A DNA stretch of 64,000 nt from Henriciella litoralis. Its GTDB lineage: Bacteria > Pseudomonadota > Alphaproteobacteria > Caulobacterales > Hyphomonadaceae. The notes under the pieces were generated by a model. That model worked only from the letters and a program-made list of their open reading frames with translations. It searched no databases and was not told where the DNA came from. Position numbers and translations under genes: made by a program. The stretch covers positions 1-64,000 of the forward strand of contig NZ_NCSS01000004.1 of NCBI RefSeq assembly GCF_002088935.1. The letters are read 5' to 3'. Below, piece after piece: positions 32,175 to 45,436 of this stretch (positions are counted from its first letter, which is position 1; every line of letters starts with the position of its first letter).

Positions 32175-32609
32175 CTAGTCCTGCCGCGTGACCTTCCCGC
32201 GCAGCGCCTTCTTTTCTCCTGTTTCCTTCTTGGCCTTGATGCGCCGCTCAATGGCCCCTCGCCCGGGCCGCGTCGGAATTCGGCGCTTTCGCTTGCGGGT
32301 CGCCTTCTGGATCATCGAAATCAACCGCTCGCGCGCTTCGTCCCGGTTGCGCGCCTGAGAGCGATGTTCGCTCGCATCGACGATCACATCGCCATCCTTG
32401 GTAATCCGGTTCTTCCAGAGCTGGCGGAAACGCGATTTGATGTGAGGCGGCACGCTCGAGGCATCGACATTCCAGCGCAGCTGCACAGCCGTCGAAACCT
32501 TGTTCACATTTTGCCCACCCGGCCCCGATGCCCGCGTGAAGGTTTCGACGAGCTCCCAATAAGGCACTGTAATTTCGTCGTTTATTTCGAGATCTTTTGA
32601 TGCGCTCAT
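32175..32609 (-). CDS. arfB: Alternative ribosome-rescue factor ArfB (YaeJ)
   Basis: A 144-residue peptidyl-tRNA hydrolase that releases stalled ribosomes lacking a stop codon. The catalytic GGQ loop is RASGPGGQNVNKVSTAVQL near residue 30. The basic tail (RKRKRRIPTRPGRGAIERRI-type) that enters the empty mRNA channel is present, which separates ArfB from release factors. smpB, of the tmRNA rescue system, lies 4 kb away. Confidence 0.95.
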   Translation of the reverse strand: MSASKDLEINDEITVPYWELVETFTRASGPGGQNVNKVSTAVQLRWNVDASSVPPHIKSRFRQLWKNRITKDGDVIVDASEHRSQARNRDEARERLISMIQKATRKRKRRIPTRPGRGAIERRIKAKKETGEKKALRGKVTRQD

Positions 32610-33342: not shown

Positions 33343-33381
33343 AAAAGCCCGGCATTTCCTTTGAAATGCCGGGCTTTTTCG
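33343..33381 (+). terminator. Terminator of the RcnB-like gene
   Basis: A perfect 13-base stem AGCCCGGCATTTC/GAAATGCCGGGCT with a four-base loop, followed by TTTTTC, 25 bases after the stop codon at 33320. Confidence 0.95.
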
Positions 33382-33403
33382 TCGTTCATCTTCCATTTAG
33401 CGC

Positions 33404-33483
33404 GAGTCATGTTTTATATGAATCACCGGCACAGATTTTTTGCGGTCGGTGTTCTGTTCAAACAGCTGAAAGGAGGTGATCCA
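33404..33483 (+). promoter_or_regulatory. Leader with 16S-complementary ribosome-binding site
   Basis: Two GANTC sites (33404-33408 and 33420-33424) flank a TATATG sequence that may be a -10. Downstream a CACCG/CGGTG hairpin precedes AAAGGAGGTGATCCA at 33469-33483. These 15 bases are the exact complement of the universally conserved 3' end of 16S rRNA, and they run up to the ATG at 33484. Confidence 0.6.
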
Positions 33484-33564
33484 ATGTCGAGTGAGAAACC
33501 AGGTACGGCGATTGGGTCCGTTCGGGCTGGTGGACTTGGAGAGCAACCTCTCTTCGTTTGCTAG
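33484..33564 (+). CDS. 26-codon ORF with maximal Shine-Dalgarno
   Basis: This small ORF encodes MSSEKPGTAIGSVRAGGLGE then QPLFVC and a TAG stop. The peptide is glycine rich with a single C-terminal cysteine and no recognised family. The AGGAGG core is seven bases from the ATG, ideal spacing, within a 15-base perfect anti-16S match. It has its own terminator at 33620 and is insulated upstream by another, so it forms a compact transcript of roughly 200 bases. It could be a small protein, a leader peptide, or a ribosome-binding RNA. Confidence 0.6.
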   Translation: MSSEKPGTAIGSVRAGGLGEQPLFVC

Positions 33565-33696
33565 CACAACATCGACAAGGCCTTGTGCCCTGTCAGGATT
33601 CAGAGCCAAGCCGGCTCACGGAGGCCACCCAAACGGGTGGCCTTTTCGTTTTCAGGCTTTCAGAAACAAGGGCTGATCGACGGCCTTCGCAACCGA
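33565..33696 (+). terminator. Untranslated tail and terminator of the 26-codon transcript
   Basis: The stem GGCCACCC/GGGTGGCC (33623-33630 with 33635-33642) with an AAAC loop is followed by TTTTCGTTTTC. It lies about 60 bases after the stop codon of the small ORF. Between stop and stem no further structure or ORF is evident, and the rest of the interval to the convergent transglycosylase gene is empty. Confidence 0.85.
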
Positions 33697-36710: not shown

Positions 36711-37190
36711 ATGTCGAAGAAGAATCAGATCAAGGGCCGTAATGACGGCCTCGTTGCAGAAAACCGCCGCTCGCGGTTCGACTATCATGTCGAAGACACG
36801 CTTGAGGCCGGACTGGAGCTGCGCGGCAGCGAGGTGAAATCCCTGCGCAATGGCCGCGCCAATATCGCTGAATCCTATGCTGGCGTGGAAAATGGGGAGC
36901 TCTGGCTCATCAATTCCGATTTCCCGCCCTATGAAGGCGCCAACCAGTTCAATCATGACCCGCGCCGCCGACGCAAACTGCTCGTTTCCAAACGGGAACT
37001 CTCAAAGCTGGCCCAGTCGGTCGAGCGTGCCGGCCGCACAATCGTGCCGCTAAAGCTCTATTTCAATGAGCGCGGGATCGCCAAGCTCCTGATCGGCGTG
37101 GCCACCGGTAAACGCGCGCCCGACAAGCGTGAGACCGCCAAGAAACGTGACTGGCAGCGCGACAAGGCCCGCATCCTCAAGGAAAACTAG
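36711..37190 (+). CDS. smpB: SsrA-binding protein SmpB
   Basis: A 159-residue tmRNA partner in trans-translation. It begins [20 protein letters not shown] and contains [19 protein letters not shown] and the basic C-terminal tail ([20 protein letters not shown]) that occupies the decoding channel. The stop overlaps the convergent threonine dehydratase stop by four bases. No ssrA gene was seen in the window. Confidence 0.97.
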
Positions 37191-45080: not shown

Positions 45081-45112
45081 CTGCCTGTCCGCTGATCCCG
45101 GCGGCGGGCAAA

Positions 45113-45288
45113 CGACGTGACGGCAGGTCTCCTGACTTCGCGGATGCTCACCTTCTCGCCGCCTTCCCGGATTGCTCCAGTGGCATCTTGGCGAGGGCTA
45201 GCCGCTTACAGTTGCGGGCACAGCGCCGGATTTACACCGGCTTCCCTTTTCACCCGTCCCCCATGAGGACAGGCACCGTCAGAGGCGG
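45113..45288 (-). ncRNA. Cobalamin (adenosylcobalamin) riboswitch
   Basis: On the minus strand the conserved segments appear in order: GGTGCC at the 5' side, GGGTGAAAAGGGAAGCCGG, the L5 element with CCCGCAACTGTAAGCGG, the B12 box GATGCCACTGG near 45177-45187, GGGAAGGC, and the closing GTCAGGAGACCTGCC. These are the hallmarks of the cobalamin aptamer. Binding of the coenzyme normally represses the downstream uptake operon. Confidence 0.97.
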
Positions 45289-45436
45289 TCTCTACGCCGT
45301 TGCGCGGCCCACGGCAAGCCCTGCATAAAGACCGTGCAGCGGCTTTGATCGCGGCGTGTCTCTGCTCACAGTGTCGGGCAGGAAAGCAGACAATCTGCTA
45401 AACATCCCAACAGTCACCAGTCCCGATGGGAGATGC

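Follow-up and report, generated by a model that had tools for sequence, protein, structure and literature searches.

We conclude that a locus in the window (the whole 64,000-nt stretch of Henriciella litoralis DNA analyzed here) probably specifies a small stand-alone mRNA of about 225 nt, which doubles as a structured RNA and is a divergent homologue of the rre/CC2171 elements. Its mechanism would be ribosome gating, and we give this reading as a whole a probability of roughly 0.5. Comparison among relatives shows three features on which the reading is built: a 16-nt Shine-Dalgarno (SD) sequence for the whole free tail of 16S rRNA, a predicted downstream domain closed by a long-range helix (P1), and a short open reading frame (ORF) that stays open and short while its peptide drifts (Table 1).

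Table 1. Features of the small mRNA locus and of its borders, in window coordinates
Feature	Position	Strand	Basis
Terminator-like palindrome at the end of the RcnB-like gene; left border	33343..33378	+	sequence by eye; self-inverted match
Putative promoter region, GANTC (GAGTC) beside putative -10	33402..33415	+	-10 by inference
5' hairpin CACCGGC...GTCGGTG	33424..33451	+	folds of 26 relatives
Leader TTCAAACAGCT (class consensus TTCAACAAyn)	33457..33467	+	sequence comparison
SD16, 16-nt complement of the complete single-stranded 16S 3' tail	33468..33483	+	sequence, pairing energy; invariant in family alignment A1
26-codon ORF MSSEKPGTAIGSVRAGGLGEQPLFVC, stop TAG 33562-33564	33484..33564	+	sequence, alignment, pN/pS
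P1 5' strand GUGAG (codons 3-4)	33491..33495	+	folds, covariation, partner test
P2 5' strand, imperfect helix with 33596-33614	33499..33519	+	folds, covariation
P3 hairpin, apex GGAGAG-CAAC-CUCUCU (33538-33553)	33520..33570	+	folds, covariation
P4 hairpin, variable sequence	33571..33595	+	folds, covariation
P2 3' strand	33596..33614	+	folds, covariation
P1 3' strand CUCAC, immediately 5' of terminator	33615..33619	+	folds, covariation, partner test
Intrinsic terminator, stacked directly on P1	33620..33650	+	terminator search gives 33620-33645

The original prediction described a 15-base perfect complement of the 16S rRNA 3' end abutting the ATG of a 26-codon ORF. The 15-mer, AAAGGAGGTGATCCA (33469-33483), does lie directly 5' of the ATG at 33484-33486, and because the 3' end of the organism's own 16S gene, TGGATCACCTCCTTTC(T), also pairs with G33468, the complement is in fact 16 bases long. 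This is about the length of the entire single-stranded 16S rRNA tail beyond helix 45. The 3.78-Mb genome holds the exact 15-mer in just one other place, the 16S gene itself (3' region TGGATCACCTCCTTTCTAAGG), and a reversed control pattern gave no matches in 105 family genomes. Pairing of SD16 with the 16S tail is predicted at -29.7 kcal/mol, whereas the best start-site pairing of the 45 long ORFs in the window has a median of -8.3 kcal/mol and reaches -13.4 kcal/mol at its strongest; the SD energy of the element is an extreme outlier. Against this, accessibility of the SD in the predicted fold is only slightly higher than in shuffles (0.45 versus 0.41). Across the sequences compared, the extreme SD is the most conserved part of the unit, and of the uses originally suggested for it, holding 30S subunits seems to us the most plausible.

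The unit was expected to lie between two intrinsic terminators, and both borders hold up, the right one in a terminator search and the left one as a palindrome recognized by a self-inverted match and by eye. A simple scan for a sigma-70-type promoter found none at the locus. Of the two GANTC sites said to flank a possible -10, one (GAGTC) adjoins the putative promoter. By eye, about 17 of 26 family upstream regions have a GANTC (GAGTC, GACTC, or GAATC) at this site next to the putative -10, and the retention of its position despite a varying middle base hints at control of the small RNA by CcrM methylation. The arms of the 5' hairpin differ among the 26 relatives folded, with complementarity mostly retained.

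The locus is indeed near two ribosome-rescue genes, as first noted: an arfB-like gene for an RF-1-domain protein (32175-32609, - strand) and smpB (36711-37190, + strand). The association is not general, because flanking genes differ between lineages. We rejected a general link, as arfB recurs only near family members and on one Rhodobacteraceae contig, where it lies on the other side of the element; tlyA is found near the element in some sphingomonads. A role as a cis-regulatory leader was likewise rejected, because the terminator follows directly and the flanking genes vary from lineage to lineage. Elsewhere, the window carries a cobalamin riboswitch (45106-45295, - strand, 124.9 bits).

The original prediction named conservation as a check, and the 15-mer, followed by an ORF that is kept open and short, is conserved in the genus and class-wide. 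DNA of positions 33330-33700 matches 38 of the 61 genomes searched, including 27 of 29 from the genus (own genome counted). An alignment of 27 distinct family sequences has no gap in its first 100 columns and shows no variation in the SD, the ATG, or the TC.AGTGAGA that comes next. Homologues with the arrangement CAACA-N-GAAAGGAGGTGATCC-R-[A/G]TGTC, a short ORF, and a terminator occur across many alphaproteobacterial orders, and a pattern scan of named genomes gave at least 120 matches with the same leader. Among the matches listed are Sphingomonas, Hyphomicrobium, Devosia, Hoeflea, Mesorhizobium, Parvibaculum, Inquilinus, Rhodospirillaceae, Rhodobacteraceae, Kiloniellales, and others; all of those listed are alphaproteobacterial apart from one record labeled Mycobacterium. 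That record (Mycobacterium sp. KBS0706) is probably mislabeled, its element differing hardly at all from the one in Inquilinus limosus. In I. limosus itself, a Whalefall-1 RNA (RF01762; 7753-7804, + strand, of L122) lies about 6 kb from the SD16 element.

A 33-nt leader model under strict filters found the element in 108 of 387 genomes of the class and in 83 of 264 genera, counts that are lower bounds because known positives (G032, for example) were missed. In 199 genomes sampled phylum-wide, for which the number from outside the class is not given, there were 40 matches, all in the same class. Some lineages have paralogues, as genomes G354, G751, and G758 each carry the leader twice.

The RNA is predicted to fold more stably than its own shuffles (z = -3.1). 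Per-sequence folds share a common plan from the start codon onward, comprising P1, an imperfect P2, P3, a variable P4, and the terminator; at the locus itself, the ORF stop codon lies in the 3' arm of P3. In the family alignment (A1), 29 of 50 pairs show double changes, and covariation is 0.270 versus 0.159 when shuffled (0/500), every slid control being lower. P1 does not vary within the window's own family and was therefore tested class-wide, so that its covariation comes only from other lineages. In 65 nonredundant lineages, P1 strands pair at -15.3 kcal/mol with their own partner and at -10.2 kcal/mol with a foreign one, and the own-partner mean was reached by none of 20,000 permutations. 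Examples are GUGAG:CUCAC, AUGAGAUU:AAUCUCAU, CAUUGUCA:UGACAAUG, and CAUGG:CCAUG. In most lineages examined, P1 starts at +4 to +8.

Support is weak for P4 and for the outer pairs of P3, and several inner pairs are weak as well. With RNAalifold alone, poor alignment of the variable 3' half left the fold incomplete, and per-sequence folds and the own-versus-foreign partner test were used in its place. The P3 apex has the consensus GGAG-CARC-CUCY across the folded sequences and turns up in each of the three reading frames (37, 11, and 2 cases), so that the motif is explained by the RNA and not by the peptide. In an alternative pairing, the apex (TGGAGCARCCTC) would mimic the 16S anti-SD and sequester the SD; we set this aside as the main fold because the local hairpin fits better and covaries.

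Frame 0 is open past codon 17 in all 86 lineages, compared with 48 for frame +1 and 29 for frame +2; the leader pattern used for collection (ATGTC) explains part of this openness and fixes the first two codons only. ORF lengths cluster at 18 to 31 codons, with exactly 26 codons in 27 of the 86 lineages. The pN/pS ratio is 0.32 in close relatives (0.19 for codons 2 to 13) and 0.60 over the family, values that are confounded because synonymous sites of codons 3 to 13 pair in P1 and P2. The N terminus MS(S/N/H/K) recurs; beyond "MS," peptides share little between orders and are conserved only within lineages, and a Pfam search with the 26-codon ORF peptide gave no match. One lineage has a 50- to 58-codon ORF behind the same SD in three records, with the look of a signal-peptide protein (MSHGASPVVAALFGLAALLTAGIANA...), and one of these genomes also carries a short-ORF copy.

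Since the pairing covaries and the ORF stays open and short while the peptide drifts, we conclude that translation, or at least the openness and length of the ORF, has been selected together with the fold. The original prediction had opposed conservation of a peptide to conservation of the 15-mer and stem only. The outcome has elements of both, in that fold and ORF openness and length are kept class-wide and peptide sequence within lineages only. Its suggestion that a tiny Gly-rich peptide is made at very high levels found no support: the Gly-rich stretch is not conserved, and the extended SD of rreB reportedly impedes translation.

How such an RNA might gate ribosomes can be pictured from the geometry of its start site. 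A 30S subunit, once bound, occupies the mRNA as far as about +15, and the bases immediately ahead of the start codon must be unpaired. Here, the SD duplex would extend to -1 and P1 would occupy a stretch starting at +4 to +8, leaving the start codon in a gap of 3 to 7 nt. The duplex would have to unwind partly, and P1 to open, before the AUG could settle in the P site. As full SD pairing, P1, and an AUG in the P site could not coexist, 30S subunits would dock tightly on the RNA and initiate slowly. Translation through the 26 codons would then unfold P1 to P3, and the proportions of the RNA that are docked, under translation, or free would indicate ribosome supply and determine how long the RNA lasts or how active it is. 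The lead toward ribosome gating comes from the reported properties of rreB. More tentatively, and at less than even odds, CC2171, rreB, rreR, and this locus may form one class-wide ribosome-gated family, in which SD duplex and helix clamp the start codon, the RNA reads the supply of free 30S subunits, and the ORF matters less for its peptide than as a track along which ribosomes unfold the RNA.

Other readings take up parts of the same evidence. Were the peptide the product, the locus would encode an ordinary small protein behind an exceptionally strong SD, which would agree with the invariably open frame 0, the constrained ORF length, the low pN/pS of codons 2 to 13 in close relatives, and the recurring N terminus. 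We consider this improbable, given that peptides differ almost completely between orders, that the conserved EQPL is encoded by the hairpin motif present in three frames, and that pairing in P1 and P2 confounds the pN/pS values; moreover, the published 14-aa Bradyrhizobium and 18-aa Dinoroseobacter peptides are listed as unstructured (PMC7217052). A decoy is another unlikely account. The SD would titrate or store 30S subunits or free 16S tails and so lower SD-led initiation relative to that of leaderless or SD-less mRNAs, the ORF only clearing trapped ribosomes. The full-tail complement and its pairing energy are what such a decoy would use, and because most Caulobacter starts lack an SD (PMC4117421), competition for it could be selective; however, the RNA would have to be nearly as abundant as ribosomes, and the conserved ORF length would be left unexplained.

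Quite unlikely, in our estimate, is a base-pairing regulatory RNA switched by ribosome binding, with the ORF secondary. The Caulobacter homologue CC2171 is listed as an sRNA in Rfam, the fold is stable and followed by a terminator, and the apex CARCCUC resembles an anti-SD, but the only unpaired stretch conserved class-wide is the ribosome-binding leader, and frame 0 is protected from stops. An explanation by chance or artifact, in which an SD-like string merely happens to lie between genes, has nothing found in its favor and is refuted by conservation, both across the class and in 27 of the 29 genomes of the genus, and by covariation.

Records of this element, known here from at least 83 of 264 sampled alphaproteobacterial genera, are split between "noncoding sRNA" and "small mRNA," and the finding that selection acts on both RNA fold and ORF openness unifies them. 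If real, the gate would serve in nature as a sensor of free ribosomes and would make a clean system for studying what an over-long SD and a helix shortly after the start codon do to initiation, in bacteria in which most starts lack an SD.

Among known systems, the locus is close to CC2171 (RF01867). At Rfam gathering cutoffs there was no match at the locus; with an E-value setting on a short stretch, positions 33460-33643 aligned end to end with the model (1-159 of 159; E = 1.9e-5). The score of 32.2 bits lies below the gathering cutoff of 75 bits, so the locus is not a formal member of RF01867. The model was matched in a Caulobacter vibrioides control, and its stronger matches in other genomes have the same SD, GTG or ATG, and short ORFs. 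Leader and SD are near-identical (a few bases differ), both have a terminator, and a closing helix runs in both from after the start codon to before the terminator, in the same position but in other letters (CAUUGUCA:UGACAAUG there, GUGAG:CUCAC here). Although CC2171 is classed in Rfam as an sRNA, its members carry the same short ORF. We know of no function for elements of the CC2171, rreB, or rreR type.

The rre small mRNAs offer the second comparison. The rreB mRNA is said to have a GTG start, 14 aa, and a 17-nt SD, to cosediment with 30S subunits, and to be weakly translated; rreR reportedly encodes 18 aa, Caulobacterales are said to be among the lineages reported, and removal of the start codon reportedly stabilizes the RNA. 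In our comparison, two 7- to 8-Mb genomes of one genus have GTG and 14 codons after GAAAGGAGGTGATCCA, presumably the published rreB, and a Rhodobacteraceae MAG contig has 18 codons after the same SD. The locus shares with rreB and rreR an SD of at least 16 nt abutting the start codon, a very short ORF, and a stand-alone transcript unit with its own terminator (here predicted). It differs in having 26 codons, where the published members have 14 and 18, in its peptide, and in being a longer RNA with a 5' hairpin and the long-range P1 described here by comparison. The ATG start also sets it apart from rreB, but because homologues use both ATG and GTG, GTG marks rreB and not the group. The rnTrpL/peTrpL RNA of Sinorhizobium meliloti is likewise an alphaproteobacterial small RNA with a very short translated ORF and action beyond it (PMC7298713, PMC10117765); unlike the locus here, which has neither an attached gene nor a Trp-codon cluster, rnTrpL is an attenuator before a gene. 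PMC7298713 cites the rreB study (Hahn et al. 2017) by title. Because the CC2171 alignment and the 14- and 18-codon homologues fit the same plan, we read the locus as a divergent member of an rreB/rreR/CC2171 group spread across the class Alphaproteobacteria.
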